Part shown: piece by piece, positions 19,798-57,060 of the stretch | How positions within the stretch are numbered: the first letter of the stretch is position 1 | Layout of the letters: every line of letters begins with the position of its first letter | Source: Jeotgalibacillus aurantiacus | Lineage (GTDB): Bacteria > Bacillota > Bacilli > Bacillales > Jeotgalibacillaceae | Reading direction: 5' to 3' | DNA: 64,000 nt | NCBI RefSeq assembly: GCF_020595125.1 | Contig: NZ_JACNMS010000004.1 | Span: 62,001-126,000 of the forward strand | Made by a program: the position numbers and the translations under genes | The notes under the pieces: model-generated | What the model was told of the DNA's origin: nothing | The model's database searches: none | The model's input: only the letters and a program-made list of their open reading frames with translations

Positions 19798-19912
19798 GTG
19801 CCGGGGCATTCCTCCGCTTTCCGCGGCCGCGCGGTGAGCCAGCTAATGCTCCGCATTACGCTGTCTCACCTGTCGCTTCTCTGCCGCAGGAGTCTCCGGA
19901 ATGCCCCGGCAC
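19798..19912 (+). repeat. Dispersed palindromic repeat, copy A (115 bp, full length)
   Basis: Outer arms GTGCCGGGGCATTCC and GGAATGCCCCGGCAC are perfect inverted copies. Between them lie CGCTTTCCGCGGCCGCGC, an inner hairpin opening with GGTGAGCC and closing with CTCACC around TAATGC-TCC-GCATTA, and TGCCGCAGGAGTCT. It lies between convergent tyrS and the DUF4317 gene. The interior is almost identical to copies at 40143 (opposite strand) and 47022. Confidence 0.9.
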
Positions 19913-20106
19913 TACTTATGACTTAAGTACTTGTGAAATTTTTAAAAAGTGCATTAAGCATAAAAATGTAAGTTTTGGTATTTAGGCGATTGTTTTTTGG
20001 TGGTAACGAACTCTGAAGGGAAGGAATCATGCAATGGAATGATTGAATCTACAGGGGGTTTTGAAGGAAAAAGGATCGCTAATTTGTGTTGTGAAGGAAT
20101 TCATTT

Positions 20107-20190
20107 TTGAAACGATCGAATTAAATTCCAGAAAGATGGAATAAAAAATTGAAACGATTGAATCATTTTCCATTGTGATGGAATCCCGCG
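20107..20190 (+). repeat. Two-unit 42-bp degenerate tandem repeat
   Basis: TTGAAACGATCGAAT... at 20107 and TTGAAACGATTGAAT... at 20149 share their first 15 bases apart from one, plus TTCCA and GATGGAAT at matching offsets. The region is non-coding, downstream of repeat copy A. Bases 19913-20106 show nothing else I can name. Confidence 0.5.
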
Positions 20191-20236
20191 GAGCGGTCCT
20201 GTTTGTTAACAGGCCAAATTCCGCGGGATCTTTTTT
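20182..20236. terminator. Long terminator hairpin before the DUF4317 gene end
   Basis: ATCCCGCGGA and TCCGCGGGAT enclose a second stem, CCTGTT/AACAGG, and TTTTTT follows on the plus strand. The T-run orientation suits plus-strand transcripts; on the minus strand only weak Ts follow. It is 400 bp past the tyrS stop. Confidence 0.75.
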
Positions 20237-20248
20237 ACATAAAAACGC

Positions 20249-21412
20249 TTATTCCCCAAACACCTCGGGAATCATCTTAAACCCTTCAATTTCTGCATCT
20301 TCTTCAAGCTCAATCATAATGCAGCGTTTTCCTTTATAATTTACCTGCTTAATATACTGTAAATCCTGTGGGCTGATAGCAATGTTGGCGATTTTTGTCT
20401 GGATTTTGATCGATTTGGACTTGAATTTCGGCACCACGCTGTTGGCTTTTAATTCATAGGCTTCATTATCTGTAATGCGGGCAAATGCTTCCTTTACTTT
20501 CTCTGTTTCCACTTTCTCTCCGCTGCTTGTCAAAATGCGTTCAACGTCCCTGTAGTCAAGCTTAGGTGCTTCATCAGCATCATGTTCTTCTATCGTCTGA
20601 TTAATTTCGCTGTAAACTGTAGCAAGAGTAGAAGGAGAGAGCTGATCTCCAACAACATCTTTGATCACCTCTTCAAACACTGCTTTATCTTCCTTAGCGG
20701 TCATAATTTCTTCACCGTTCAATACCTCCTCAATAAAGCGGTAATCCGGTTCATTGGCTTTAGAAGCCGCATAAAGGACATGGTTTACATCTGACGTATC
20801 ATTTGTGAAACAGGGAAACATAAAGCCTGTTAAAGGGTTTTTTAGATCGATAATCGGATCCACTTCAACTTTGTACTTAAATTCTTTTTCCACATAATCA
20901 AACTGAATCTCTTTTTTCGGCTCCTCGGTTTTATTAATGGTACATAAAATAAACGGATGGGAGTATACCGTATCTCTGCTGTTTTCCTCCGTTTCATCAT
21001 TACTGCGTCTGGTTGGTTTCATGTATTCAGCTTTAATAAAGGTAATCACGATATCCTTCTCGTAAGGATGATCCTGAATCATCTTTTCTGTCATTTGCAG
21101 CATATGGTCTTCGAAGTCCTCTGCGGAACCGAGCAGGCCTTTATGTAAAATCAGCTGACTCGAGTTCTCTGCATCACGCTGGAATTTTAATTCAAACAGT
21201 TTTTCGTTCAGCTGGCCAGTCAGAATTTTTTTGAAGTTATTCAAAAACAGCTCCTGCTGATCGCTATCAAGCATACCGAATGGCTGTCTTTGAGCGTGAT
21301 AAATGTCAGTGGAATCCTTCATGATATAAACGTTGAATATATTTGAGATGTTTAACAGGTCATTATCAGTTTTGAATTGTTTACGTATTCCTGCGATATC
21401 TTTTTTCTCCAT
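20249..21412 (-). CDS. DUF4317 family protein, function unknown
   Basis: A 387-aa soluble protein beginning MEKKDIAGIRKQFKTDND, the typical DUF4317 N-terminus. It has no signal peptide or membrane helix and no recognised catalytic motif. The sequence is acidic with many E/D residues, and a C-terminal ...LQYIKQVNYKGKRCIMIELE stretch is conserved in the family as I recall it. GAGGAGTGA precedes the ATG. It is a single-gene unit convergent with tyrS and divergent from the yoaS-like gene, and nothing around it suggests a pathway. The family assignment is from overall sequence character and is fairly secure; the function is unknown. Confidence 0.75.
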   Translation of the reverse strand: MEKKDIAGIRKQFKTDNDLLNISNIFNVYIMKDSTDIYHAQRQPFGMLDSDQQELFLNNFKKILTGQLNEKLFELKFQRDAENSSQLILHKGLLGSAEDFEDHMLQMTEKMIQDHPYEKDIVITFIKAEYMKPTRRSNDETEENSRDTVYSHPFILCTINKTEEPKKEIQFDYVEKEFKYKVEVDPIIDLKNPLTGFMFPCFTNDTSDVNHVLYAASKANEPDYRFIEEVLNGEEIMTAKEDKAVFEEVIKDVVGDQLSPSTLATVYSEINQTIEEHDADEAPKLDYRDVERILTSSGEKVETEKVKEAFARITDNEAYELKANSVVPKFKSKSIKIQTKIANIAISPQDLQYIKQVNYKGKRCIMIELEEDAEIEGFKMIPEVFGE

Positions 21413-21575
21413 GGCTCATTCACTCCTCAATTCAGAAAAACATTCTCTCATTTTAACATACCCTCATCCGTTCCTGTCTGAATTAAATAAATAACCTTAA
21501 ACAATAATTATTTATTGATAAACAATAAATTTTAGTTTATTCTAAAAGCACAACAAACAAAAAGAGGTGTTTCTG

Positions 21576-22055
21576 ATGAAAAAAGGTTCTACAATCTTTT
21601 TAAAATTGGTGCTTTTCGTGATGGCATTAGTAGTGGGTGTATTTTGTGCCTTTGCACTGGCTCCGTTTGCGTGGAATGTGGCGGATGACCCTGTTTTCGG
21701 CATTTGGCTGCTTCTGATTATTGGTGCGATGTATGTAACGGTTGTCCCGTTTTTCATTGCTTTGTTTCAGTCATTTAAGTTATTAGGATACATTGATCGA
21801 AATGAAGCTTTTTCAAGCCTTTCTGTAGCTGCTTTGAAAAAGATAAAGATTTGTGCGTTTGTTATCAGTCTGATTTATGTGATGACGATGCCATTTTTTT
21901 ATGCGGTGGCTGAACTGGATGATGCACCAGGCGTAATTCTGGTGGGAGCTGTTCTTGTTGGTGCATCATTTGTAGTGGGGGTATTTGCCTACCTGCTGCA
22001 AATGCTGTTAAACAATGCAATTGAAATCAAAACAGAAAACGATTTAACAGTGTGA
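21576..22055 (+). CDS. yoaS: DUF2975 membrane protein, YoaS-like
   Basis: A 159-aa protein with four predicted membrane segments (roughly residues 8-30, 47-70, 90-115 and 122-148), a DUF2975-type architecture. The next gene, 9 bp downstream, encodes a small XRE regulator, and a DUF817 protein follows. This three-gene order equals B. subtilis yoaS-yozG-yoaT. The ATG at 21576 has AAAGAGGTG upstream; the GTG at 21567 lies within that site and is unlikely. The function is unknown; DUF2975/XRE pairs are common and the pair may act as a membrane sensor and regulator, which is inference. Confidence 0.75.
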   Translation: MKKGSTIFLKLVLFVMALVVGVFCAFALAPFAWNVADDPVFGIWLLLIIGAMYVTVVPFFIALFQSFKLLGYIDRNEAFSSLSVAALKKIKICAFVISLIYVMTMPFFYAVAELDDAPGVILVGAVLVGASFVVGVFAYLLQMLLNNAIEIKTENDLTV

Positions 22056-22064
22056 GGTGAGAAT

Positions 22065-22277
22065 ATGGCGATCGTAATTAACATAGATGTGATGCTCGCA
22101 AAGAGGAAAATGAGTGTAACGGAATTAACTGAAAAAGTCGGTATTACCATGGCGAATTTATCCATTCTGAAAAACGGTAAAGCAAAGGCGATTCGATTTT
22201 CAACACTTGAAGCAATATGCAAAGCACTGGATTGTCAGCCGGGTGATATCTTGGAGTACAGGAGTGATGAGGAATAA
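22065..22277 (+). CDS. yozG: Small XRE-family helix-turn-helix regulator, YozG-like
   Basis: A 70-aa protein consisting almost entirely of one HTH domain: MSVTELTEKVGITMANLSIL as helices 2-3, then GKAKAIRFSTLEAICKALDC and the terminal QPGDILEY typical of the YozG/Cro-like subgroup. It starts 9 bp after the DUF2975 gene with a GTGAGG-type ribosome site and is followed by the DUF817 gene. It probably regulates its own operon; direct targets cannot be read from the sequence. Confidence 0.85.
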   Translation: MAIVINIDVMLAKRKMSVTELTEKVGITMANLSILKNGKAKAIRFSTLEAICKALDCQPGDILEYRSDEE

Positions 22278-22300
22278 AAGAACAGGGGAGGGAAAGGGAG

Positions 22301-23140
22301 ATGAATCGAACCAGAAATACTTCCACTATCTCAGATGATAAATTCACAAGGGTTCCTTTTTGGATTATGGCAGACAGATATGGTGGCTCAATGATGCAAC
22401 TGCTCCGGTTCGGATGGGAACAGTCCTTATCATGTGTATTTCCTGTCGTGATTTTCCTTTCTCTTGCTTTGACAAAGTACATCACACTTCCTTTTTTGCC
22501 ACGTTATGACTGGCTGCTGATTATCTGTGTCCTCATGCAGTGGTGGATGTTGAAGTCAGGATTGGAAACAAGGGATGAATTGAAGGTTATCACGTTATTT
22601 CATTTGATTGGCATTGCGCTTGAAGTGTTTAAAGTGAATATGGGGTCATGGTCTTATCCGGAGGAGGCAAATTCCATGGTTTTTGGTGTGCCGTTATACA
22701 GCGGATTCATGTATGCCAGCGTTGCAAGTTATCTCTGTCAGGCATGGCGGCGACTTGATGTTAGGCTTGTACATTGGCCGCCGTTTGTTTTTGTCGTTCC
22801 TCTTGCTGCTGCGATATACCTGAATTTCTTCATTCATCACTTCTGGATGGACGTCCGCTGGTGGCTTTCTGCTCTTGTTATCATTGTGTTTTGGCGGACA
22901 GCTGTTTTGTATAAGGTTGGAAGAAGGCAGTATCGCATGCATCTTGTGCTTTCATTTATCCTGATCGGTTTTTTTATCTGGGTTGCTGAAAATATTGCCA
23001 CCTTTTTTGGTGCTTGGACCTATCCTTATCAAACTGAAGCATGGAGTCTTGTTGACATTGGAAAAGCCAGCTCATGGCTGCTGCTCGTGATTGTCAGTTT
23101 TCTCATAGTTGCTCAATTGAAGCTTGTGAAAAAGAATTGA
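22301..23140 (+). CDS. yoaT: DUF817 integral membrane protein, YoaT-like
   Basis: A 279-aa, very hydrophobic, tryptophan-rich protein with about eight membrane segments. Conserved-looking motifs are EVFKVNMGSWSYPEE in the first half and ENIATFFGAWTYPYQ in the second. These similar halves are typical of DUF817 (YoaT). AGGGAAAGGGAG precedes the ATG. It is the third member of the DUF2975-XRE-DUF817 module. Family members have no established function; the paired acidic/aromatic motifs in membrane helices suggest binding or transport, which is inference. Confidence 0.78.
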   Translation: MNRTRNTSTISDDKFTRVPFWIMADRYGGSMMQLLRFGWEQSLSCVFPVVIFLSLALTKYITLPFLPRYDWLLIICVLMQWWMLKSGLETRDELKVITLFHLIGIALEVFKVNMGSWSYPEEANSMVFGVPLYSGFMYASVASYLCQAWRRLDVRLVHWPPFVFVVPLAAAIYLNFFIHHFWMDVRWWLSALVIIVFWRTAVLYKVGRRQYRMHLVLSFILIGFFIWVAENIATFFGAWTYPYQTEAWSLVDIGKASSWLLLVIVSFLIVAQLKLVKKN

Positions 23141-23190
23141 TTATCTGTTTGTGGTTATCTTATTTAAACTATTCAAGAAAAAATGGCTTG

Positions 23191-24126
23191 TTATTTAATG
23201 AAAATTCCTGCTGATACATTCTGTTCAATGTTTTTTCGATTGTTGTAAATCCATAGGAACATTTTTTTGTTTACTGAATACAGATTTTTATCATGTGAAA
23301 AATAAGCCATGAAGATGCTCTGTATACAAAGCATAATGTACCAAATAGACTGCTTTTCAACGTCTGAAAGTGGTTTGTGTTCACTGTAACTGTTTACGAG
23401 TTCCTGTACAAATGTGAACCAGTTTTTTCTCAGTTCGGGATTTATAAAAACTTCACTTAATATGCTGGTTGAACAATAGCAGAGATCGAAGGTGCTGACG
23501 TTTATTTCTGCGAGGTCAAAGTCAATGAAAGCTTTCAAGGATTCATCATTGACAATCATATTGTAGATGTGTGCATCGCGATGAATCAACTGCTTGGGTA
23601 TGGAACGGACAATATTATGTATTTCTTCGTCTAATTCTTTAAAAATTCTCATTAAAATATCAGATGAATCTGCTTTTACTATTTCATGAACAGCGAAAGA
23701 ATAAACCATTTGATAGAGATTTTTATTTGGAAAAAGTTCTGAAAAGCTTAGCTTTTTCATGGCATTGTTTAAATCTGCAATAGCCGACCCTACGACTTTT
23801 ACTTTATTTGGATAGTGAATCATTTCCAAAGCATTAAATGTAGAACCTTCAATATGATCGTATAATGAATAATATTTATTTCCGTAATGGGTGTAATATT
23901 CACCGTTATTGTTAATGATCATGGAATGCACGGGCAAGTGATTTGTCTGTAAGTGATGAAGTAGGTGCATTTCTCGATTAATCTGAACGGAATCATTCTT
24001 CTCTTTAAGAATAAACTTCTCATAGTGGTCAGAAACAATGAGAAAAACGCGCTCTGAAAGTTTTTCTGCACATTTGATCGTTAAATTATAGTGTGATGTG
24101 ATTGTTTGTATATTCTGAAGTTCCAT
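23191..24126 (-). CDS. APH/choline-kinase-like phosphotransferase
   Basis: A 311-aa protein kinase-like fold. The Brenner motif HRDAHIYNMI (residues ~180-190) and the metal-binding FIDFDLAEI (~198-206) are the catalytic signatures of the aminoglycoside phosphotransferase/choline kinase superfamily. An N-terminal KFILKEKNDSVQINREMHLL carries the ATP-binding lysine. The substrate cannot be told: CotS-like spore proteins, homoserine kinase-like enzymes and small-molecule kinases all share this pattern. It is a single gene on the minus strand, convergent with yoaT, without a clear terminator. It is more AT-rich than its neighbours, which may reflect transfer. Confidence 0.7.
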   Translation of the reverse strand: MELQNIQTITSHYNLTIKCAEKLSERVFLIVSDHYEKFILKEKNDSVQINREMHLLHHLQTNHLPVHSMIINNNGEYYTHYGNKYYSLYDHIEGSTFNALEMIHYPNKVKVVGSAIADLNNAMKKLSFSELFPNKNLYQMVYSFAVHEIVKADSSDILMRIFKELDEEIHNIVRSIPKQLIHRDAHIYNMIVNDESLKAFIDFDLAEINVSTFDLCYCSTSILSEVFINPELRKNWFTFVQELVNSYSEHKPLSDVEKQSIWYIMLCIQSIFMAYFSHDKNLYSVNKKMFLWIYNNRKNIEQNVSAGIFIK

Positions 24127-24216
24127 TGTGTTCTCCTATACATAATTAGTAATGGATACTTCGGTATAAGGTTGTGTTTTTCCTTTTGAATACCCTACAT
24201 TTCAGTTGGAATTCAT

Positions 24217-24264
24217 AAAAAAACCCCTGACCATGTTGTAAAAACAACGTGATCAGGGGTTTTG
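24217..24264 (-). terminator. Terminator of rpsD
   Basis: AAAACCCCTGACCATGTTGT, AAAA loop, ACAACGTGATCAGGGGTTTT form an 18-20 bp stem with two mismatches. Read on the minus strand it ends in TTTTTTT after the rpsD stop. Confidence 0.9.
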
Positions 24265-24288
24265 TCTCTGTTAAGCTGCAGAGGCAGA

Positions 24289-24891
24289 TTAACGAGAGTA
24301 GAATTCTACTATTAGCGCTTCGTTGATGTCAGCAGCTAGTTCGTTACGCTCTGGGAAGCGAGTGAATGTACCTTCAAGCTTGTCCGCATCGAACGTTACG
24401 TATTCAGGAGTGAAGCTGTTAAGCTCAATTGCTTCTTTCACAATGTTCAGCTTCTGTGATTTTTCACGAAGGCTGATTGTTTGTCCTGGCTTTACGCTGT
24501 AAGATGGGATGTCAACGCGTGAACCGTCAACCATTACGTGACCGTGGTTAACAAGCTGACGAGCCTGACGACGAGTGCGTGCAAGACCCATGCGGTATAC
24601 AAGGTTGTCAAGACGAGCTTCAAGAAGAATCATGAAGTTGTCACCGTGACGGCCTTGAAGTTTACCAGCTTTATCGAATAGGTTACGGAACTGACGCTCA
24701 GTTACTCCGTATGTGTGACGAAGCTTCTGCTTCTCCTGAAGCTGAAGACCATATTCAGATAGTTTTTTACGCTGAGTAGGACCGTGTGGACCTGGAGCGT
24801 AAGGACGCTTTTCTAATTCTTTTCCTGTGCCGCTTAGTGAAACACCAAGACGACGGGACAGTTTCCATGCTGGACCTGTATAACGAGCCAT
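24289..24891 (-). CDS. rpsD: 30S ribosomal protein S4
   Basis: A 200-aa primary 16S rRNA-binding ribosomal protein. [21 protein letters not shown] is the expected N-terminus ([16 protein letters not shown] shown first). [20 protein letters not shown] is the S4 RNA-binding domain. The isolated location away from the main ribosomal clusters, next to ytrP, matches B. subtilis, where rpsD is autoregulated by S4 binding its leader mRNA. It has an AAGGAGGAG ribosome site, a strong promoter 190 bp upstream and a structured leader. Confidence 0.98.
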
Positions 24892-25077
24892 AGTTTGACT
24901 CCTCCTTGTGTTTTTATTTTGTTGTAAAATAAAAACCAGTACTGTGATGAACCATCAATCATCATTTTGTCATCTTGCACCATCGCCCTGCAGCAGGGGT
25001 TACACGATGCACCTGTATTGAAGCAGGAACAAAATGAAAAATTCATGTACTCACAAAAGGCTGCATTATTTTACACA
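24892..25077 (-). promoter_or_regulatory. Structured 5' leader of rpsD (candidate S4 autoregulatory element)
   Basis: About 185 nt lie between the promoter and the start codon. On the minus strand, CATCG...CCCTGC/GCAGGG...CGATG forms a nested stem. A perfect 11-bp hairpin GTTTTTATTTT/AAAATAAAAAC (24910-24936) sits just before the ribosome site. Autoregulation by S4 is known in B. subtilis; equating this structure with it is inference. Confidence 0.5.
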
Positions 25078-25083
25078 AAGAAC

Positions 25084-25112
25084 ATCATACATCCCAGTAA
25101 GATTTATGTCAA
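25084..25112 (-). promoter_or_regulatory. SigA promoter of rpsD
   Basis: On the minus strand a perfect TTGACA (25112-25107), a 17-bp spacer and TATGAT (25089-25084). Confidence 0.85.
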
Positions 25113-25210
25113 GGGCGATTTCTAAATGTTTTCCATGAATCGATTTATTTAGTATCCCCTGAAAATACGATAAACGAAGTATTTTGTCTATAATTATATT
25201 ATTTTTTATG

Positions 25211-25238
25211 TAGAAATAGCTGGGAATTGTGCTATAAT
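25211..25238 (+). promoter_or_regulatory. Promoter of the ytrP-like gene
   Basis: TAGAAA (25211-25216), a 16-bp spacer and TATAAT (25233-25238) preceded by TGC (extended -10), about 95 bp before the start. The surrounding sequence is AT-rich and otherwise empty. Confidence 0.6.
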
Positions 25239-25334
25239 AAATATTTGTAAATATCTGAAAAATACATAAATAAAAAGTTATGTTAAAAACTTCGAGACAA
25301 AAGTTTGATATTAAAAAGGGATGAAGGTGGAATG

Positions 25335-27182: not shown

Positions 27183-27194
27183 ATAACGAAAACA

Positions 27195-27234
27195 GACCGG
27201 AACAGCACTCTTTTTGAGCCGTTCCGGTTTTTTT
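27195..27234 (+). terminator. Terminator of the ytrP-like gene
   Basis: GACCGGAACAGC and GCCGTTCCGGTT form a stem over an 11-base loop, ending in TTTTTTT. Confidence 0.88.
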
Positions 27235-27318
27235 ATGCCGAAGATAATTGTTTCTGCATAGGGAATCATACTTTTACACATATCAGCTGTATTGCAAATA
27301 TCTGCATTTTTCTGCTCT

Positions 27319-27346
27319 TTGAATATATTATAAAAAAAGGTAGAAT
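27319..27346 (+). promoter_or_regulatory. Promoter of the methionine gamma-lyase gene
   Basis: TTGAAT (27319-27324), a 16-bp spacer and TAGAAT (27341-27346). The transcription start would fall at or inside the cre site immediately downstream. Confidence 0.55.
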
Positions 27347-27351
27347 AAAAA

Positions 27352-27365: not shown

Positions 27366-27382
27366 TTTTAGGGGGAGCTTTT

Positions 27383-28637: not shown

Positions 28638-28680
28638 TATTGACTTTAAAGATAATGTTTAGAACGTGAATAGACAATAA

Positions 28681-28735
28681 GTGCCGGGTCATTCCGGAGA
28701 CTCCTATGGCGGAAAGCGAAGGAATGACCCGGCAC
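28681..28735 (-). repeat. Dispersed palindromic repeat, copy B (55 bp, inner hairpin deleted)
   Basis: Arms GTGCCGGGTCATTCC and GGAATGACCCGGCAC are perfectly complementary. Only GGAGACTCCTATGGCGGAAAGCGAA remains between them, in two parts GGAGACTCCTATGG and CGGAAAGCGAA, so the GGTGA...TCACC hairpin is missing. It lies between the convergent mgl and ytsP genes. Confidence 0.88.
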
Positions 28736-28761
28736 GGTTTATCTAGTCAGCATTTCAGAAA

Positions 28762-32707: not shown

Positions 32708-32726
32708 TATTGATAAATGTTTAAAT

Positions 32727-32800
32727 CGTGCGAGGTCATTTCATCTCTTTATGTGGCCGTGCGGTGTGGCGGACTAATGATCCGCAGCTGTGTCAGGAAT
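32727..32800 (+). repeat. Decayed copy J of the dispersed palindromic repeat
   Basis: CGTGCGAGGTCATTTC, GTGGCCGTGCGGTG and GACTAATGATCCGCAGCTG line up with the left arm, CGGCCGCGCGGTG and GCTAATGCTCCGCATTACGCTG of copy E, with scattered substitutions. The right arm is lost except perhaps GGAAT. It runs into the stop codon of brnQ. Confidence 0.55.
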
Positions 32801-39687: not shown

Positions 39688-39696
39688 CTGAAAATC

Positions 39697-39933
39697 GGGC
39701 CAGGGACATCCTCCGCTTTCCATTGTCTAGCTGCGGCGACTAGCCCCTCGAGGTCATAAGTCAAAGATGAAAGAGGGCAAAGATCAGCCCTCTTTTCATC
39801 TTCGCCTTATGCTTGTCGGGGCTGGACGAGTCGCCTTCGCTTTTCTAAGGCCGCGCGGTGAACCCGTTGTGCTTCGCACACCGGTTTCACCTGTCGCTTC
39901 ACTGCCGCAGGAGTCTGCGGATGTCCCTGGCCC
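39697..39933 (+). repeat. Dispersed palindromic repeat, copy C (interrupted by a nested element)
   Basis: Arms GGGCCAGGGACATCC (39697) and GGATGTCCCTGGCCC (39919) are perfectly complementary, and the inner hairpin is GGTGAACCCGTTGTGC/GCACACCGGTTTCACC. About 129 bp of foreign sequence separate CTCCGCTTTCC from GGCCGCGCGG, which are adjacent in intact copies. It lies just after rarD, and the right arm ends in CTTTTT, so it could also work as terminator. Confidence 0.88.
39722..39850 (+). repeat. Second palindromic element nested in copy C
   Basis: The inserted segment is itself a nested palindrome: GGCGACT/AGTCGCC outside, then AGCCCC/GGGGCT, CATAAG/CTTATG, and AAGATGAAAGAGGGC/GCCCTCTTTTCATCTT at the centre. 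The flanks CCGCTTTCC and TTCGCTTTTC look like a diverged duplication. No reading frame is apparent. Confidence 0.75.
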
Positions 39934-40142
39934 TTTTTATGTGGCTCAAGACTTTAATGTTTTTGAGAAGAAAGAAAACCTGACCATTCTTGTGCAGTTC
40001 TCAGACTAAATGGATTTTGAAAGTATAGAATGATGGACATGAAATGAGAAACAAAGGAGTTCTTTTGGATAATTTTCTATCGATGAAAACTCTCTTGCTA
40101 TGCACAATTTCATAAATGATATCATTCAATAAGCACACAAAA

Positions 40143-40257
40143 GTGCCGGATTATTCCGTAGACTCCTGCGGCATAGAAGCGACAGGTGAGACAGCGTAAT
40201 GCGGAGCATTAGCTGGCTCACCGCGCGGCCGCGGAAAGCGAAGGAATAATCCGGCAC
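40143..40257 (-). repeat. Dispersed palindromic repeat, copy D (115 bp, full length)
   Basis: Arms GTGCCGGATTATTCC and GGAATAATCCGGCAC are perfectly complementary. The interior is nearly identical to copy A but inverted. A GGTTTTT tract follows the right arm. It lies in the same convergent gap as copy C, before nadK2; the bases between them (39934-40142) show no feature. Confidence 0.9.
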
Positions 40258-40279
40258 GGTTTTTCAATAGAGGCTTTAA

Positions 40280-46958: not shown

Positions 46959-46966
46959 CACGACAA

Positions 46967-46999
46967 AGCCCTTTTGTCTTTATTTGAGACAAAAGGGCT
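46967..46999 (+). terminator. First ackA terminator copy
   Basis: AGCCCTTTTGTCT and AGACAAAAGGGCT form a perfect 13-bp stem, but only CAGG follows, so the T-run is missing. A near-identical hairpin lies at 47248. Confidence 0.7.
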
Positions 47000-47021
47000 C
47001 AGGTTGTCGAAATTCTAAATC

Positions 47022-47136
47022 GTGCCAGGTCATTCCTTCGCTTTTCGCGGCCGCGCGGTGAGCCAGCTAATGCTCCGCATTACGCTGTCTCACCTGTCGC
47101 TCCTCTGCCGCAGAAGTCTACGGAATGACATGGCAC
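47022..47136 (+). repeat. Dispersed palindromic repeat, copy E (115 bp)
   Basis: Arms GTGCCAGGTCATTCC and GGAATGACATGGCAC pair with one mismatch, and the interior is nearly identical to copy A in the same orientation. TTTTT follows the right arm. The copy lies between two near-identical terminator hairpins (46967 and 47248). Confidence 0.9.
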
Positions 47137-47247
47137 TTTTTGTGTGGAAACCCTCCACATCAACAGCCCTTTAATTATCACTTTTAAGAGTGATCTTAAT
47201 TTATTGTCACGAAAATTGAAGTTTGTCTTTAAAAATTCAACACTCTA

Positions 47248-47284
47248 AGCCCTTTTGTTTTTATTTGAGACAAAAGGGCTTTTT
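47248..47284 (+). terminator. Second ackA-type terminator copy
   Basis: AGCCCTTTTGTTT and AGACAAAAGGGCT with TTTTT repeat the hairpin at 46967 with one base changed, 281 bp downstream. This copy keeps the T-run. Bases 47137-47247 hold no other feature I can name. Confidence 0.85.
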
Positions 47285-48249: not shown

Positions 48250-48310
48250 AGGACCGTCCTCCCCCGGAGACTTCTGTGGCGGAAAGGGACAGGTGAAACC
48301 GATGTGCATT
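48250..48310 (-). repeat. Dispersed palindromic repeat, truncated copy F
   Basis: GGACCGTCCTCCCCC, GGAGACTTCTGTGGCGG and AAAGGGACAGGTGAAACC match one arm and interior of copy I (56950). The sequence stops after GATGTGCATT, so the other half is lost. It lies 72 bp before full copy G in the same orientation. Confidence 0.75.
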
Positions 48311-48381
48311 TCTAGACACGAATGAAAGTTATAATTAATATTTTGAAGCTAATTTAAGACTATAACTAAATTTCTCACAGA

Positions 48382-48493
48382 GGCCATGCCTCCCCCGGAG
48401 ACTCCTGCGGCAGAGAAGCGACAGGTGAGACAGATGTGCGTAGCACAGCTGGCTCACCGCGCGGCCGCGGAAAGCGCAGGGGGAGGCATGGCC
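48382..48493 (-). repeat. Dispersed palindromic repeat, copy G (112 bp)
   Basis: Arms GGCCATGCCTCCCCC and GGGGGAGGCATGGCC are perfect inverted copies, quite unlike the arms of the other copies. The interior CCGCGCGGCCGCGGAAAGCG and the hairpin GGTGAGACAGATGTGC/GCACAGCTGGCTCACC are conserved. Confidence 0.9.
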
Positions 48494-48550
48494 GGCTCTT
48501 TGTAACCATAATGAATATTATTTTCAGAAAAATTAAACTTCTATCTTTTT

Positions 48551-49871: not shown

Positions 49872-51244
49872 GTAAATTATGGGGAGGACGCTTTTCCCAA
49901 TCCCCTGAAGAATGGGTAGACGAATTTAACGCTTCCATTGATTTTGATCAGCAGCTTGTCATGGAGGATTTGGAAGGTTCAGTTGCCCACGTTACGATGC
50001 TTGGGGAGTGCGGAATTTTAACAAAAAAAGAAACAGATGAAATTATACATGGACTGTCTGTACTGAAGGAGAAGGCTGCTGATGGAAAGCTGCCTTTCTC
50101 GGTCCAAAACGAAGACATTCATTTAAACCTTGAACACTTTCTGATTCAGGAAATCGGACAGGTTGGTGGGAAACTGCATACAGGGCGTAGCCGGAATGAC
50201 CAGGTTGCCACTGATATGCACCTGTATCTGAAGCGCCGTGTCCTTGAGATTCAGGAGCTGATCCGATCCGTTCAGTCAGCGATTTTAAAACAGGCTGGTG
50301 AACATGTAGAAACAATTGCACCGGGATATACGCATTTGCAGCGGGCTCAGCCGGTGTCATTCGCCCATCACCTGATGGCTTATTTCTGGATGTTGGAGCG
50401 GGATTATGGACGCTTTGAAGATTCCATGAAGCGGATCGATGTATCACCTCTTGGCGCCGGTGCACTTGCGGGGACAACGTTTCCGATCAACCGTCAGCGT
50501 TCAGCAGAACTGCTTGGCTTTTCTTCGATCTATGAAAACAGCATGGATGCCGTTAGTGACCGCGATTTTATTATCGAATTTTTAGCTAATGCCTCCATGA
50601 CGATTATGCACTTATCCCGTTTTGCCGAAGAAATGATCATCTGGTCGAGTCAGGAATTTCAGTTTATCGAGATGGCAGATGCTTTTTCTACCGGAAGCAG
50701 TATTATGCCTCAAAAGAAAAACCCTGATATGGCAGAGCTTGTGCGTGGAAAGACTGGAAGAGTGTTCGGCAACCTGTTCTCACTTCTGACGGTTCTAAAA
50801 GGTCTTCCGCTGGCCTATAACAAAGATATGCAGGAAGACAAGGAGGGCATGTTTGATACGGTTCATACACTGATGGGATCGTTAAAAATATTTGCCGGAA
50901 TGATTGATACGATGAAAGTGAAAACGGAAAGACTGAGCCAGGCCGTTAATGAGGACTTCTCAAACGCCACAGAACTCGCTGATTACCTTGCGGCGAAGGG
51001 TCTTCCTTTCCGTGAAGCACATGAAGTCGTCGGCAAACTCGTGCTGACTTGTATTCAGCAGAATATTTATTTGAAGGACCTTTCATTGAAAGACATGCAG
51101 GAGGCTTCTTCACTCATTGATGAGGAGGTATTTACCGTACTGGAACCTTCTGAAGCAGTGAAGAGAAGAGAGTCAGAGGGTGGCACAGGCTTCAGCCAGG
51201 TGCGAAACCAGATTGAAAAAGCAAAAACCATACTGGAAGCATAA
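49868..51244 (+). CDS. argH: Argininosuccinate lyase ArgH
   Basis: A 458-aa fumarase/aspartase-superfamily enzyme splitting argininosuccinate into arginine and fumarate. [20 protein letters not shown] is the usual start. [13 protein letters not shown] and [16 protein letters not shown] are active-site regions, and [16 protein letters not shown] is the superfamily signature. The start codon overlaps the argG stop (ATGA) without a strong ribosome site, suggesting translational coupling. Confidence 0.97.
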
Positions 51245-51248
51245 AAAT

Positions 51249-51276
51249 GGGACAGGCATCGTGCCTGTCCCTCTGT
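51249..51276. terminator. Hairpin between argH and the UspA gene
   Basis: GGGACAGGC and GCCTGTCCC form a GC-rich stem with ATCGT loop. T-richness after it is weak (CTCTGTTATTT). It lies at the convergent ends of argH and uspA. Confidence 0.6.
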
Positions 51277-51279
51277 TAT

Positions 51280-51762
51280 TTATATGTTGTATTCTTCGGT
51301 GTGTTCTTCTTTTTCAGGAGGTTCGTCCGTCCGGACAACCAGCACATCACATTTTGCTGCTCTCACAATGTGTTCAGAAATACTTCCGATCAGGAATCTT
51401 TCCATTGCGTTTAATCCTGTAGCGCCGCAAATGATCAGATCAGCTTCGACTTTCTGGGCGAACTCTTTTGGCACAAGCACTTTCGGAGATCCGTACTCTA
51501 CAAAAATATTAACCTTTGTAACACCTTTGTTCAGCGCTTCTTTCTTGTAATCTTCGAGCATTTCTTCTGCGAAAGATTCTGCGCGCTTTGCCACACTTCT
51601 GTCGTATGCTTCCACAACGGCAAAAGAACGTGTGTCAATGACGTGAAGCAAATTCAGTGTTGCATTGTTACGTTTGGCAATCCCGATTGATTTTTTAAAC
51701 GCCCACTCGGCTTCCTTGGAGCCATCAACTGCAACGAGAATGTGATCATAGCTTAATGTCAT
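51280..51762 (-). CDS. Universal stress protein, UspA family
   Basis: A 160-aa Usp-fold protein. DHILVAVDGSKEAEWAFKKS starts the domain, and GATGLNAMERFLIGSISEHI matches the ATP-binding G-2x-G-9x-G-S/T pattern of the ATP-binding subgroup. CDVLVVR is the closing strand. The last ~15 residues (DEPPEKEEHTEEYNI) are an acidic tail. It probably works in stress or stationary phase; the partner is unknown. GGAGGCGAT precedes the ATG. It is a single gene convergent with argH. Confidence 0.9.
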   Translation of the reverse strand: MTLSYDHILVAVDGSKEAEWAFKKSIGIAKRNNATLNLLHVIDTRSFAVVEAYDRSVAKRAESFAEEMLEDYKKEALNKGVTKVNIFVEYGSPKVLVPKEFAQKVEADLIICGATGLNAMERFLIGSISEHIVRAAKCDVLVVRTDEPPEKEEHTEEYNI

Positions 51763-51848
51763 TGTTATCGCCTCCTTAGTTATATATTACCCCGGAGAGC
51801 GACAAAATTCCTGCTTATTTTTTTGAAATTACAGACATTTTGTGACTT

Positions 51849-53159
51849 TTATTTTCCTGCTGATTTTAGACATGCATATAAAAGAGAAGCAGTGAGAAAT
51901 ACAGTAAAGCCTGGTGATGCCTGATCAGGAAGAATCAGATAAAGCGGGATACAGGATATGACGGTTAATACAGCGGCCGTATTTTTCAGCGATTTTCCTG
52001 TTATGAGTTTCAGCAGATCCTCTTCCTGAATCGCCAGCCTCTTGAAAAACAAATAGTCTGTAATAATAATAGCGGATAACGGGACAATGGCTGCACCTAA
52101 AAGAGAGATATAAAATTCCGCCTGTTCCACGATCACCGGGAACAGACTCAAACCTGTCGCAGCAAAACCGAATAAAATGGCACTGTTAACCCGTCCAAGT
52201 CTCGGGAAAGCATTCAGCAGGCTATAACCTCCTGTGTATGCATTGCTGAGATTGATGGATATCATAGAGATTACCGCACCTGCTGCAATCAGCAAAATCA
52301 GTGGAGAAGAGCTGGTCAGCTCGCTTGCAGTGACAAACGGATTCACGGAACCGAGTGATGCAGCATAAAACGTGCCGATAAATGATACAGCTGTAAAGCC
52401 GATTGCATTTCCGATAAAGACACCTGTAAATCCTTCAGATGGACTTTTTGCGTAACGGGTCATATCTGATGATGCACTTACACCGGACACATACTGTACA
52501 AAAGCAAGACCGGCAAAAAATAAAAACATGCCAAATGAAAATTCACCGTTGGTTACAGCAACAAAGTCATCAGACATGATATGACGGATGATTAAATAAA
52601 TCATCAATCCCTGGCTTAGAAAAAGGACTGGAATAAACCATTTAATTGTTTTCTTTACTGCATCAAAACCGATCAATGCCAGCACGGTCATAATGATGGC
52701 GAAAAATGAGGTCAGCACCAGTAAAGAGACGCTGATGCTGAAATACTCTTTCAAAATAAACTGGATCACAATAGAGCCGCCGATCGTCTGAACGCTGAAC
52801 CAGTACAGCGAAGTAATGGAGCGCACAGGAGAAGCGAAATATCTGGACAGCCTCGTGCCAATCATCGTACGTATCACGTATTGAGCTGGAAGTCCGTGGC
52901 GTGCACCTGGTAACGAGAGCAGTGAAACGAGTAAAAAGGCAAGTAGTGCGCCCGTCAGTGTGGATGCCATAGCCCATCCTGCTGACAGTCCCCCCGTTAA
53001 TACGGCCAGAGCAGGTACGAGAACATTCCCTGTATTTACTGAAAAAGCAATTTGAATGAAAGCATAATCATACCAGCGGGTCTGTTTCTGGGATGCAGGA
53101 ACTTCATCGAGTCCAATTTTTTCAATCTGTATTTTTCTAACGTCATTTGTTTTCTGCAT
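51849..53159 (-). CDS. NCS1-family purine/cytosine permease-like transporter
   Basis: A 436-aa protein with about 12 membrane helices. NTGNVLVPALAVLTGGLSAG and ARHGLPAQYVIRTMIG are characteristic of cytosine/purine/allantoin permeases (NCS1). ISINLSNAYTGGYSLLNAFP holds the second conserved region. The substrate (cytosine, purines, allantoin or hydroxymethylpyrimidine) cannot be decided. The start at 53159 is chosen since GGAG lies 7 bp before that ATG; the TTG at 53171 falls inside this site. It is divergent from ald. Confidence 0.82.
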   Translation of the reverse strand: MQKTNDVRKIQIEKIGLDEVPASQKQTRWYDYAFIQIAFSVNTGNVLVPALAVLTGGLSAGWAMASTLTGALLAFLLVSLLSLPGARHGLPAQYVIRTMIGTRLSRYFASPVRSITSLYWFSVQTIGGSIVIQFILKEYFSISVSLLVLTSFFAIIMTVLALIGFDAVKKTIKWFIPVLFLSQGLMIYLIIRHIMSDDFVAVTNGEFSFGMFLFFAGLAFVQYVSGVSASSDMTRYAKSPSEGFTGVFIGNAIGFTAVSFIGTFYAASLGSVNPFVTASELTSSSPLILLIAAGAVISMISINLSNAYTGGYSLLNAFPRLGRVNSAILFGFAATGLSLFPVIVEQAEFYISLLGAAIVPLSAIIITDYLFFKRLAIQEEDLLKLITGKSLKNTAAVLTVISCIPLYLILPDQASPGFTVFLTASLLYACLKSAGK

Positions 53160-53282
53160 AGAAGGCTCCAACCTATTTCATTAGTGTGTCTAAACATTAG
53201 TTAGTTTAACACAGGTAAGGAAGTGCGGAAATGGTTTAAAAATGTGTGAATAATCCGTTAATTCAGAAGCGTGAAATAAGTA

Positions 53283-53311
53283 ACGACAAGGGTTAGGGGA
53301 TTTGTTAAAAT
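53283..53311 (+). promoter_or_regulatory. Candidate promoter of ald
   Basis: ACGACA (53283-53288), a 17-bp spacer and TAAAAT (53306-53311) preceded by TGT, an extended -10. Confidence 0.5.
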
Positions 53312-53327
53312 GGAACTGGATATTTAC

Positions 53328-53350
53328 AGCCTGATCCTTTCAGGCTTTTT
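53328..53350 (+). promoter_or_regulatory. Terminator-like hairpin in the ald leader
   Basis: AGCCTGA and TCAGGCT pair over TCCTT and are followed by TTTT. It lies between the ald promoter and its ribosome site, with no plus-strand gene ahead, so it may be an attenuator. The stem is short (7 bp). Confidence 0.45.
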
Positions 53351-53387
53351 GCACAATTAAATAAAGAGAAATGAAGGAGGAACAATC

Positions 53388-54506
53388 ATGCGTATTGGTA
53401 TTCCAATGGAAATTAAAAACAACGAAAACCGGGTTGCCATCACTCCATCCGGTGTCTACAATTTTGTCAATCAGGGTCATGAAGTACTGATTGAGGATGG
53501 TGCTGGCCTTGGATCAGGCTTCACGAATGAAGACTATGTGGCAGCAGGTGCTTCAATTGCTTCAACGGCATCTGAGGCATGGGCATGCGACATGGTGATG
53601 AAAGTAAAAGAGCCGATTGCAAGTGAATACGGGTATTTCCGTGAAGGCTTAGTTTTATTTACATATTTACATCTGGCTCCAGAACCTGAACTGACAAAAG
53701 CATTAATTGACAATAAAGTTGTGGCAATTGCGTATGAAACGGTTCAGCTTCCTAACGGTTCTCTGCCGTTGTTAACACCTATGAGTGAGGTTGCCGGAAG
53801 AATGGCGACTCAAATCGGTGCTCAATTCCTTGAAAAAATTCATGGTGGAATGGGAATTCTTCTTGCGGGCGTTCCAGGCGTTGCACGCGGGAAAGTTACC
53901 GTTATCGGCGGAGGCGTTGCCGGCACAAACGCAGCTAAAATGGCAGTTGGTCTCGGCGCGGATGTAACCATTCTTGACCTCAATCCTGAAAGACTGCGTC
54001 AGCTCGATGATATGTTCGGAAACGATGTGACAACACTTATGTCAAATCCGTTGAACATTGCTGAAAGTGTCGCACAAGCAGATCTTGTGGTCGGAGCTGT
54101 ATTAATTCCGGGTGCTAAAGCACCTAAATTAGTAACAGAAGACATGATTAAAGCGATGAAGCCTGGTGCGGTTGTCGTAGATATTGCGATTGACCAGGGC
54201 GGAATTTTTGAAACGACGGATAAAATCACAACACATGATAATCCGACTTACACGAAGCATGACGTTGTGCACTATGCAGTAGCGAACATGCCTGGAGCGG
54301 TTCCACGTACATCAACGATCGCACTGACAAACGTGACAGTGCCGTTTGGTATCCAGATTGCGAATAAAGGCTATAAGCAGGCGTGTCTTGATAATGAAGC
54401 ATTGATGATGGGGATTAACTGCCTTGATGGTTTTGTTACGTATAATGCTGTTGCGGAAGCGCACGGCCTTGAGTATGCGAATGTTCGTGATTTGCTGACT
54501 CCTTGA
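53388..54506 (+). CDS. ald: Alanine dehydrogenase Ald
   Basis: A 372-aa NAD-dependent enzyme interconverting L-alanine and pyruvate plus ammonia, needed for alanine use and for sporulation in Bacillus. [20 protein letters not shown] is the start signature. VMKVKEP holds the pyruvate-binding lysine, and TYLHLAP the catalytic histidine. [20 protein letters not shown] is the NAD Rossmann loop. GAAGGAGGAAC precedes the ATG. It is a single gene with a possible leader attenuator. Confidence 0.97.
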
Positions 54507-54514
54507 TTTTTCAG

Positions 54515-54550
54515 ACCGGGATCTGCGCTTTGGCGTGGGTGCCGGTTTTT
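54515..54550 (+). terminator. Weak terminator of ald
   Basis: ACCGG and CCGGT close a loop containing GCGC/GCGT, and TTTTT follows. The stem is interrupted. Confidence 0.5.
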
Positions 54551-54561
54551 TATTTTAAGCC

Positions 54562-54673
54562 GGGCCGAACTCATCCTCCGCTTTCCGCGGCCGGGCGGTG
54601 AACCCCTTGTGCTTCGCACAATGGTTTCACCTTTCCCTTTCCGCCATAGGAGTCTGCGGATGCGCCCCTGCCC
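54562..54673 (+). repeat. Dispersed palindromic repeat, copy H (degenerate arms)
   Basis: The interior CGCTTTCCGCGGCC and hairpin GGTGAACCCCTTGTGC/GCACAATGGTTTCACC are conserved and match copy I. The arms GGGCCGAACTCATCC and GGATGCGCCCCTGCCC pair poorly. It lies between the convergent ald and peptidase genes. Confidence 0.85.
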
Positions 54674-54722
54674 TAATACGGTTATATGATATCTTTAACA
54701 CCTTCATTCCTTCGTCCGCATC

Positions 54723-54848
54723 GGTTCGTAAGATTTTGTGGAAGGTTCGCAAAATAAGTGGTCTGTTTCGCAAAATAAACGGTGAGGTTCATGGGATTTT
54801 GCCTTTGTTTCACAGGATTTTGCTAGACTTTCGCAGAGTTGTGTCATT
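54723..54848 (+). repeat. Six-unit 21-bp tandem repeat
   Basis: Six exact-period units begin at 54723, 54744, 54765, 54786, 54807 and 54828, each of the form (G/C)(G/T)TTC(G/A)(C/T)..(G/A)AT... Units 2 and 3 share TTCGCAAAATAA, and units 4 and 5 share GGATTTTGC. In one frame they read as heptads such as VRKISGL, FRKINGE, FHRILLD, but no ribosome site makes that a convincing gene. Confidence 0.75.
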
Positions 54849-54898
54849 TTACCTAGGAAGGTGAATGTCACTTAACTTTTATCTCGATTTCTATAAAG

Positions 54899-54935
54899 AA
54901 AACAGGCTGCCTTCGCGATGAAGACAGCCTGTTTT
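54899..54935 (-). terminator. Terminator of the M24 peptidase gene
   Basis: AAAACAGGCTG and CAGCCTGTTTT pair, with CCTTC/GAAGA extending the stem around CGCGAT. It ends two bases before the peptidase stop codon. Confidence 0.85.
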
Positions 54936-54937
54936 GT

Positions 54938-56011
54938 TTAGTAGACCTGTAAAGTTTTTGGGAACTTGGTCAGTGTTTCGTATCCGTCTTTTGTTACGAG
55001 AACATCATCTTCAATCCGGACGCCTGCTACACCGGGAACATAGATGCCCGGCTCGATCGTGAAAGTCATGCCTTCTTCAAGCACCAGATCGTTTTCAGAT
55101 GTGATGGATGGATATTCATGCACGTTTAAACCAATGCCGTGTCCGAGGCGGTGCGGGAAATAATCTCCGTAGCCTGCCTCTTCAATTACTTTACGTGCTG
55201 CAAGATCAAGCTCTTTTACCGGTACGCCGGGCTTGACCATCTCAAGCGCCGTCATTTCGGCTTTCAGTACAGTATCGTAAATTTCTTTTTGTTTATCACC
55301 GATCTCACCGAACGCAACGGTTCTGGTGATATCTGAGCAGTAGCCCTTATAAACGACTCCAAGATCAAAAAGAACGAGATCACCCTGCTGGATTTTCGTC
55401 AGTCCAGGTGTTCCGTGTGGGGATGAAGCATTTGCCCCCGTTAATACCATCGTTGAAAAGGACATTTCTGTAATGCCTTTTTTCTTCAGCTCAAATTCAA
55501 TGGTCGCGAGAATTTCGAGCTCTGTTTTTCCTTCAGCCAATTCACGACAAGCCGTTTCAATGGCGAAGTCAGCCAGTTTTGCGGCTTCTTTTAAATGATT
55601 GACTTCTTGCTCTGATTTGATCACCCGCATAGCGTTCAATAAGCTGGATGCATCGAGAATCTCGCAGTTACCAAAAACAGTCCGGATCGCCTCAAGTCTT
55701 TCAACAGTCAGGTGATTTTTTTCAATGGCGATACTTTCAGGTGCACCTGTTTTTTCATACAGCATGATCAGAGGATTTTCCGTATCACTGTAACCGATTA
55801 TCTGACCTTCCCACCCGGCTTTGCGTGCATCTTCTGTCTCCATGCCCGGGCATACCAAAACCGGTTCACTGGAAGCCGGTACATAGAAAGCCAGCCACCT
55901 TTCGTGTGGATCGCTTCTAAACCCTGTCGTATAGGTGACATTTTCAGTGGACGTTAAAAAAGCGGCCCCGATTTTATGTTCTTTTAAATAATCCTGGATT
56001 TTTTTATACAA
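54938..56011 (-). CDS. M24-family Xaa-Pro peptidase (PepQ-like)
   Basis: A 357-aa pita-bread-fold aminopeptidase. The N-terminal creatinase-like domain (1-125) includes NVTYTTGFRSDPHERWLAFY. The catalytic domain has all five metal ligands: DLGVVYKGYCSDITRT (two Asp), GHGIGLNVHE (His), TIEPGIYVPG (Glu) and RIEDDVLV (Glu). It probably cleaves Xaa-Pro peptides for peptide use. The start appears to be TTG at 56011, with AGAAAGGAACG upstream; no ATG is suitably placed. It is divergent from ytkL. Confidence 0.92.
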   Translation of the reverse strand: MYKKIQDYLKEHKIGAAFLTSTENVTYTTGFRSDPHERWLAFYVPASSEPVLVCPGMETEDARKAGWEGQIIGYSDTENPLIMLYEKTGAPESIAIEKNHLTVERLEAIRTVFGNCEILDASSLLNAMRVIKSEQEVNHLKEAAKLADFAIETACRELAEGKTELEILATIEFELKKKGITEMSFSTMVLTGANASSPHGTPGLTKIQQGDLVLFDLGVVYKGYCSDITRTVAFGEIGDKQKEIYDTVLKAEMTALEMVKPGVPVKELDLAARKVIEEAGYGDYFPHRLGHGIGLNVHEYPSITSENDLVLEEGMTFTIEPGIYVPGVAGVRIEDDVLVTKDGYETLTKFPKTLQVY

Positions 56012-56150
56012 AGCTGCACGTTCCTTTCTGTTTATCTATTAAACAAATTAGCACGATTCCAAAAAGAAGTAAACGCATTCAGACGTTTCTCTGAAAACAG
56101 AATAGGGTATTATTTAGAGGTGTAAAATACTTATCCGGGAGGAATCAGAC

Positions 56151-56831
56151 GTGCACATATCCTATCATGGACATTCAGTTGTAAAGATCGAAACGAACGG
56201 AAAAAAGATTTTAATTGATCCATTTATCAGTGGGAATGAGCTCACGGATCTCACAGCATCAGATGAAACGCCGGACTTCATCATCCTGACACACGGACAT
56301 AACGACCACGTCGGGGATACAGTTGAAATCGCAAAAAGAAACGATGCCCTTGTAATCGCACCGTTTGAACTGGCAAACTATATGGAATCACAAGGTGTTA
56401 AAGCGCACCCGATGCATATTGGCGGTGCTTATGGATTCGACTTTGGAAAGGTTAAGTTTACGCAGGCCTTCCATGGATCATCCTTTACAGAAGAAAACGG
56501 TAACGTCGTCTACACCGGTATGCCCGCAGGCGTCCTCGTGATGGCGGAAGGAAAAACCGTTTATCATGCAGGAGACACCGCTTTATTCAGTGACATGAAA
56601 CTGATCGGTGACCGTCATCCGATTGACCTGGCATTCCTGCCGATTGGCGATAACTTCACCATGGGGCCAGAAGATGCAGCCTACGCAGCCGAACTGCTCC
56701 AGGCCAAAACAGTCGTCCCGATCCACTTCAACACATTCCCGCCAATCAAGCAGGACCCGGACAAATTCGCCGCATCCCTCAAAGAAGGACAAGGCAAAGT
56801 CATGCACGCAGGAGACTCAATCGAACTATAA
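56151..56831 (+). CDS. ytkL: Metallo-beta-lactamase-fold hydrolase YtkL (UPF0173)
   Basis: A 226-aa metal-dependent hydrolase. [13 protein letters not shown] is the HxHxDH zinc site near residue 50, and [10 protein letters not shown] and [14 protein letters not shown] are the later ligand regions. This is UPF0173 (YtkL); its substrate is unknown. The start is GTG with GGGAGGAATC ahead. The last ~65 codons are strongly C-ended (AAC, ATC, TTC, GCC), unlike the first part of the gene. Confidence 0.92.
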
Positions 56832-56845
56832 AATTCATAACCGCA

Positions 56846-56874
56846 AGACCTCCATTCACTGGGGGTCTTTTTTT
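56846..56874 (+). terminator. Terminator of ytkL
   Basis: AGACCTCC and GGGGGTCT pair (one G-T) over ATTCACT, followed by seven Ts. Confidence 0.85.
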
Positions 56875-56949
56875 AAGGGGATTATGGGACCTGACCGGTT
56901 TTCTAATTACAAATTTTCGAAATATTATCTTTTTGTTTTATGATAAATA

Positions 56950-57060
56950 GGGCCTGGGACATCCGGAGACTCCTGTGGCGGAAAGGGACAGGTGAAACCA
57001 TTGTGCGAAGCACAAGGGGTTCACCGCCCGGCCACGGAAAGCGCAGGATGTCCCAGGCCC
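56950..57060 (-). repeat. Dispersed palindromic repeat, copy I (111 bp)
   Basis: Arms GGGCCTGGGACATCC and GGATGTCCCAGGCCC are perfectly complementary. The inner hairpin GGTGAAACCATTGTGC/GCACAAGGGGTTCACC and CGGCCACGGAAAGCG are conserved. It lies between the codirectional ytkL and ytoI, just upstream of the ytoI promoter. Confidence 0.9.

Follow-up and report, generated by a model that had tools for sequence, protein, structure and literature searches.

A terminator-like palindromic repeat family of Jeotgalibacillus aurantiacus and related Bacillaceae, and its one-sided association with intrinsic terminators

In a 64,000-nucleotide stretch of the Jeotgalibacillus aurantiacus genome (the window; G000:C4:62001-126000, where G000 denotes this genome of 3.51 Mb), one palindromic element recurs between genes. 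Its unit is about 117 nt long: an outer stem of 15 bp, GC-rich and variable in sequence, encloses a conserved core, which has the fold of a branched hairpin. An earlier note on this DNA had described the copies as lying always 3' of genes and as unusually dense. The locus raises the questions of what this element is, why it stands where it does and what moves it. The answer that we favour, and to which we give an even chance, is that it is a nonautonomous palindromic repeat, terminator-like and terminator-targeting, widespread in Bacillaceae and their relatives.

Copy number and distribution

A covariance model (R1), built from 30 copies of the element, gives at least 150 matches in the whole genome, the weakest listed at E 3.9e-6. 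Close reading of a 1.15-Mb sample of the genome (C4, C7, C2:1-160000 and C2:200001-740000) leaves 95 distinct copies once second-strand duplicates, as well as one match at E 0.014, are removed. In the window the model finds eight distinct places (E 3e-31 to 2e-9), seven of them longer than 110 nt. Six of the eight belong to the model's own 30 sequences and match by construction, so that the evidence independent of the training set consists of the genome-wide count and the two other window copies. The at least 150 genome matches confirm that the family is real and dispersed beyond the window. The impression of an unusual local density did not hold, eight matches in 64 kb comparing with about 5.3 expected from 95 in 1.15 Mb: what is dense is the whole genome, not the window in particular.

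The search of related genomes that had been called for likewise returned many further copies. A related Jeotgalibacillus genome, G004, holds 84 in 1.18 Mb (R1 search), and under the stricter filters applied to large sets, 65 of 101 genomes of the order (J. aurantiacus and 100 relatives) have a match at E<=0.001. The core, which we take to be common in Bacillaceae sequences and for which we know of no name, occurs as an exact pattern in at least 81 stretches of the genome collection, in Jeotgalibacillus, Rossellomorea, Ureibacillus, Sporosarcina, Fictibacillus, Salinibacillus, Metabacillus, Peribacillus, Cytobacillus and other genera. Outside Jeotgalibacillus, 36 such stretches yielded 38 R1 matches; among the 29 inspected, most have the same core with different arms, some are truncated, and many are enclosed by an extra outer stem of the type GTTGATT...AATCAAC. 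One copy, compared by blastn with plasmids and phages, found no match at the settings used. In G081 (L272-L281) the core lies within a longer repeated unit, with the outer ends GGGACAAAAGTGTTTT...AACACTTTAGTTATGTCCCAG in most copies.

Matched arms and T-tracts

Sixty-five copies of the J. aurantiacus sample were classed as simple (score at least 90, length 105-122 nt). They have 52 distinct left arms, and the two arms of one copy nevertheless match at a mean of 14.37 of 15 positions, 48 of the 65 being perfect; between copies the figure is 8.84, and the best of 2000 re-pairings reached 9.88. Arm types recur (GTGCCAGGTCATTCC, for instance, six times in the 65) and share inner and outer halves. 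Because of this recurrence, insertion of the core into the loop of pre-existing terminators, whose stems would then be the arms, is rejected as a general origin. Two-sided changes occur in the fold in 18 of 44 pairs.

A stable predicted fold with compensatory changes might denote a conserved functional RNA, either a small RNA or a 3' element of mRNAs, whose structure is under selection at the RNA level. The arm mismatches, however, do not favour the pair tolerated in RNA alone: among 41 in J. aurantiacus, 11 are G-U and 10 A-C, and among 15 in G004 the numbers are 4 and 3. Transcription of both strands would also blur such a skew. Copies lie in both orientations relative to genes, and we hold a functional RNA to be highly improbable.

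The stem is preceded by A-rich DNA and often followed by T-rich DNA. With a simple script of our own, which asked for 4 T in 6 nt for the core strand and 4 T in 8 nt for the other, T-tracts were found on the core strand of 27 of the 65 simple copies (control 9.7%) and on the other strand of 44 (control 24%); 19 have them on both strands and 52 on at least one. These 52, with GC stem and T-tract, are thus predicted to be intrinsic terminator-like on one strand or both. Because most copies have this predicted character, a copy would be tolerated at the end of a gene and could take over from the terminator that it displaced.

A fixed direction relative to terminators

Terminators are distributed around the element asymmetrically, in one fixed direction. 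Our terminator finder, also a simple script, scans for a hairpin with a T-tract pointing at the element. Around the 65 copies it detects 27 terminators on the left and 8 on the right within 130 nt, and 22 on the left and 1 on the right within 40 nt (binomial p 6e-6). By their letters, two of these 22 left hairpins belong to a second repeat, X, described below, and without them the count is 20 to 1. The 22 differ among themselves; the 20 that are not part of X are separated from the element by 14-35 nt. Where the left gene runs towards the element, the distance from its stop is mostly 36-67 nt. G004 repeats the pattern, with 18 left and 3 right for 41 copies, 17 of those 18 lying within 30 nt, although the two counts are interdependent, 56 of 75 comparable sites being common to both genomes. 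Five distant genomes (G007, G009, G081, G095 and G051) give 10 left and 1 right within 130 nt for 40 copies. In G095, the left hairpin is itself common to 7 of 8 copies, so that its five detections are not independent host terminators, and the 5 to 1 remaining without this genome is weak. Terminators were found on neither side within this distance in G081 (10 copies) and G051 (2 copies). The asymmetry suggests targeting, in which the unit would insert just 3' of an intrinsic terminator of the host and would do so in a single orientation.

Two side observations belong here. The hairpin shared in G095 (L282-L289), CCCGAACGAA...TTCGTTCGGGTT, precedes the palindrome in those seven copies as if a terminator had joined the unit; and in G007 one copy begins about 26 nt beyond the end of a purine riboswitch match (L034 1373-1474).

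Position relative to genes

Genes were predicted with a simple caller of our own based on open reading frames (ORFs), which gave a set of 1150. Gaps between them accommodate 92 of the 95 copies: 34 convergent, 54 tandem and 4 divergent, where gap length would predict 17.2, 57.4 and 17.4 (simulated P 1e-5 and 6e-5). Two of the other three overlap called ORFs and one, near the end of a stretch, was not placed. The copies are intergenic, enriched in convergent gaps and depleted in divergent ones. The statement that they lie always 3' of genes and never between divergent ones is accurate for the window; in the wider sample, with 4 of 92 divergent, it becomes a strong bias and not a rule. In tandem gaps, 34 of 54 copies are closer to the upstream stop than to the downstream start (p 0.08). 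Over all gap types, the left-hand gene is closer to the core than the right-hand one (median 76 versus 192 nt; 49 to 17 of 66 copies).

Such a distribution could also arise if insertion were random and selection cleared copies from genes and promoters, the left/right asymmetry of terminators being a by-product. The depletion of divergent gaps is the outcome to be expected of selection against promoter damage, and two thirds of the copies have no detected left terminator within 40 nt. Selection, however, has no evident reason to favour one orientation by 22 to 1 (p 6e-6), a bias repeated in G004, and we regard this alternative as unlikely.

Comparison of species and dated changes

Twenty-two blocks longer than 800 bp, about 218 kb in total and 86-96% identical, align G000:C4 with G004. 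Presence or absence at orthologous loci, a comparison that the earlier note had recommended, was examined against this one close relative: 75 copies of J. aurantiacus have a syntenic place there, 56 of them matched by a copy and 19 unmatched, and in the reverse direction 52 of 68 are matched and 16 are not. Some of the unmatched places hold remnants.

In 27 orthologous pairs both scores are at least 85. Seventeen keep their arms, which are 98% identical as compared with 91% for the flanks; of the changes in these arms, 4 are two-sided and 3 one-sided. The other ten differ in their arms, seven having both arms different and still paired and three differing on one side (two of them composites). 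In two of the 27 the interior is in opposite orientation. The copy at 54561-54674 (plus strand, matched by R1) has the left arm of its G004 counterpart joined to a foreign core and right arm, and its arms now pair poorly; the copy at C7:100019 likewise has one native and one foreign arm. The pattern at 54561 is as expected from recombination between copies. We suggest that copies exchange or replace one another in this manner, and that templated correction within the palindrome may be part of what keeps the two arms matched.

The clearest dated change lies downstream of ackA. Two 34-bp terminator hairpins (46966-46999 and 47247-47280, plus strand), the second 97% identical to the first and followed by a T-tract, flank a 247-bp unit (47000-47246, plus strand). 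This unit consists of a 21-nt leader (CAGGTTGTCGAAATTCTAAAT), a full copy of the palindrome (47021-47137, plus strand, matched by R1) and a 109-nt AT-rich tail. G004 has one hairpin without the unit; G007, G008, G009 and G011 have a terminator without the element, and G006 has a different, diverged element. Since G004, G007, G008, G009 and G011 lack the unit, it would most simply have been inserted in the lineage of J. aurantiacus. A second copy of it lies at G000:C2:685333-685578 (97% over 246 bp). As for the AT-rich right tail, it was rejected as part of the repeated unit: the 90 best of 393 flank matches in the sample include only one right-flank pair not due to X, and donor-carried tails are not supported in general. 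Exact direct repeats of at least 12 nt within 260 nt surround 4 of 30 copies, and three of these are only 12-mers.

A second informative place is the gap between rarD and nadK2. In G006-G009 and G011 it is short and has an intrinsic terminator and no R1 match. In the window it measures 592 nt and contains two elements, a composite copy described below and a full copy at 40142-40258 (minus strand, matched by R1); the relatives' hairpin is missing, and our finder detects terminator-like hairpins only in repeat X or at the junction of X and the core. In G004, too, the gap contains an element, together with the remnant of a left arm. We read this as replacement of the terminator by the elements, although the hairpin may have been lost in some other way.

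One can frame a bolder proposal, which we consider possible but doubtful. The palindrome would home on termination sites, inserting in one orientation at the hairpin and T-tract or shortly before the point at which RNA polymerase stops. It would duplicate or displace the terminator and then serve as one, gradually replacing the terminators of the genome, and would spread without an obligate Y1 transposase or RVT_1 reverse transcriptase, its arms being corrected within the palindrome.

Several observations weigh against insertion downstream of terminators and exchange between copies as we propose them. Only a third of the copies have a left terminator detected within 40 nt, and the upstream gene's stop is on the element's left in only 21 of the 54 tandem-gap copies. 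In G006 the diverged element has the reverse orientation relative to a nearby terminator. A single clean insertion with a duplication could be resolved; the other presence/absence differences extend into adjoining DNA, and two genomes do not suffice to polarise them. Because one flank is less than 80% identical in 8 of the 10 arm-differing pairs, these may be different insertions at one place instead of changes in one copy. Finally, a four-gamete test for mosaic arms found one quadruple in J. aurantiacus and none in G004.

Composite copies and repeat X

The copy that the earlier note had listed at 39697 is a composite. It extends over 39696-39934 (plus strand) and has the arms and the core of the element, R1 matching its 3' part (39818-39934), with a second repeat, X, nested after CGCTTTCC. 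The nested repeat, X1, occupies 39723-39842 (plus strand) and has its own terminator-like hairpin at about 39773. This copy is not a one-off: X sits after CGCTTTCC in many copies, forming a composite class of about 250 bp, and composite stretches recur in the genome at 86-94% identity. The sample has 27 places that match the left end of X1, and a copy lies no more than 260 bp away from 22 of these; X therefore also occurs alone. The slot takes at least two inserts, X1 and X2, which share their end sequences (window 39723-39842; neighbourhoods of G004 c29 201640 and 481530). At C4 90680, 235047 and 259006, the interior is simple in one species and composite in the other, within arms that are the same or nearly so. 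The variability of the arms, X as a repeat family and the direction relative to terminators are new with respect to the earlier note.

What moves the element?

No transposase is encoded inside the copies seen, in agreement with the initial view that they are either moved in trans or structural elements; their intergenic, palindromic nature and their occurrence in both orientations were recognised correctly as well. A suggested search for a Y1 transposase of the RAYT type (repetitive extragenic palindrome (REP)-associated tyrosine transposase) did reveal two Y1 genes in J. aurantiacus; no copy of the element was found around either of them in the 3.3 kb fetched per locus. One of these genes is bounded by other inverted repeats, GGGGACGGAGC...GTTCCTTTTT (L032 1011-1087, 1893-1945). 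PF01797 is matched in 84 of the 101 genomes, and the element is present in 57 of these 84 and in 8 of the 17 that lack one (G001, G005, G007, G017, G024, G092, G094 and G095). RVT_1 is matched in 53 of the 101 and has no match in the element-rich G004; G005, G017 and G024 have the element and match neither family. The search for a mover covered PF01797 and RVT_1.

With eight element genomes lacking PF01797 and no copies near the Y1 genes of J. aurantiacus, RAYT is rejected as an obligate mover; RVT_1, or a group II intron, is rejected in the same capacity because of G004 and of the three genomes that lack both, although an enzyme of either kind may have been lost since. The mover would act in trans and need be neither a Y1 transposase nor an RVT_1 reverse transcriptase.

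Could the element be a REP/REPIN-type family nevertheless, moved now or formerly by a RAYT? It is palindromic, extragenic and present in more than 100 copies, its genome has two Y1 genes, and its frequencies in Y1-positive and Y1-negative genomes (57 of 84 versus 8 of 17, no formal test) differ in the expected direction. The absence of Y1 is weak evidence, as a survey of REPs also saw no obvious correlation between tyrosine transposase genes and repeats (PMC3733652), and a mover since lost is possible. Against this stand the eight element genomes without PF01797, which include G007 in two contigs and G017 in one, the absence of copies near either Y1 gene of J. aurantiacus, one of which has unrelated inverted repeats, and the lack of a constant GTAG tag. 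A REP/RAYT-like system, one of the possibilities initially envisaged, finds no support, and we consider this origin distinctly unlikely.

Another possibility is that of a miniature inverted-repeat transposable element (MITE) cut from a DDE transposon. The true mobile unit would then be the subset of copies that combine the leader CAGGTTGTCGAAWTTCTAAAT with a far end roughly similar to it, and the palindrome would be carried along as cargo. The 247-bp unit is indeed present twice, the leader is common to five of the first 30 copies, and the two ends of the unit agree at 14 of 19 positions by eye; moreover, next to one and the same terminator the unit points one way in G000 and the other way in G004. 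However, a search allowing up to 3 mismatches finds the leader at only 7 sites in the genome, compared with 2 for its reversed control, and most copies lack it. Five of the seven are known copies, L249 is near another copy, and L247 contains a short, diverged one. The ORFs at L247 do not look like transposases by eye, no family search having been made, and an autonomous parent with this leader was rejected. We consider a MITE origin very unlikely.

Relation to known repeat families

Rfam gave no match over the window copies at the gathering thresholds or over copies in six loci at E<=0.1, and no description or name of this repeat family was found in the open-licence papers searched. The element resembles bcr1 in being an intergenic, structured repeat of the 150-bp class dispersed in a Bacillus; bcr1, which Okstad et al. 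reportedly presented in 2004, is said in the title of that paper to be specific to the B. cereus group, and the two are set apart here by description, not by sequence. Group IIC introns insert beside intrinsic terminators in one orientation, a likeness to what we propose for the element; they differ in that no intron structure was recognised in the element and that G004 is element-rich without RVT_1.

Small palindromic repeats are usually explained through RAYT or through constant terminal repeats, and this element fits neither. REPs and REPINs are, like it, extragenic palindromes of high copy number; the element is about three times longer than a REP, its arms are variable and it is not tied to a Y1 gene (PMC3733652). 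Where a REP is a palindrome of 20-40 nt, or a pair of them, with a GTAG end, the element unit measures about 117 nt and its GTAG-like position varies (GTCTACGG, GTCTCCGG, GTCTGCGG, GTCTTCGG); neither Y1 transposase is flanked by the repeat. Like the element, the MITEs RUP, ERIC and Correia/NEMIS are structured, nonautonomous and 100-200 bp long; their terminal repeats are constant (PMC2229807), whereas the arms of the element vary, with 52 left arms among 65 copies and only a small subset sharing a leader, and its one resolved duplication is a 34-bp terminator. Bhal-1 of Bacillus halodurans is a stem-loop family of 74 nt and 36 copies in a Bacillaceae genome (PMC2267715), and, compared by description and not by sequence, it might be part of the same family.

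What the element does show is an orientation rule relative to terminators and, in a dated case, elements that stand at a site where relatives have an ordinary terminator. If our interpretation is true, terminator sites would be a niche for mobile DNA, which would rewire the 3' ends of genes across a large bacterial group, and the two-sided arm changes between close species would be a natural record of how palindromes stay perfect.

Other copies in the window

The copies named at the outset were borne out by repeat searches and R1 searches, and the names of the flanking genes, including those of the six convergent gaps, agree as far as Pfam can tell. Three of these features have no R1 listing at E<=1: a solo left arm (CGTGCCGGGTCATTCC, 10637-10652, plus strand), whose 16 nt are a common arm sequence, in the convergent gap between MotB-like and AcuC-like genes; a decayed copy (32723-32770, plus strand) between ezrA and a branched-chain transporter gene, 69% identical over 48 nt to the copy at 19793; and a truncated copy (48250-48307, minus strand), 93% identical over 44 nt to 56963-57006.

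The remaining copies are all matched by R1. In the gap between an EcsC-family gene and that of argininosuccinate synthase lies a full copy at 48381-48494 (minus strand), and for another, at 56949-57061 (minus strand), the copy that G004 has in the equivalent position differs in both arms. A short copy that lacks its centre (28680-28736, minus strand) corresponds in G004 to a long composite with nearly identical arms. The full copy between tyrS and the DUF4317 gene (19797-19913, plus strand) is represented in G004 only by a left arm and a remnant of the composite form. Upstream of the same tyrS gene there is a T-box leader (window 18249-18458; Rfam RF00230).

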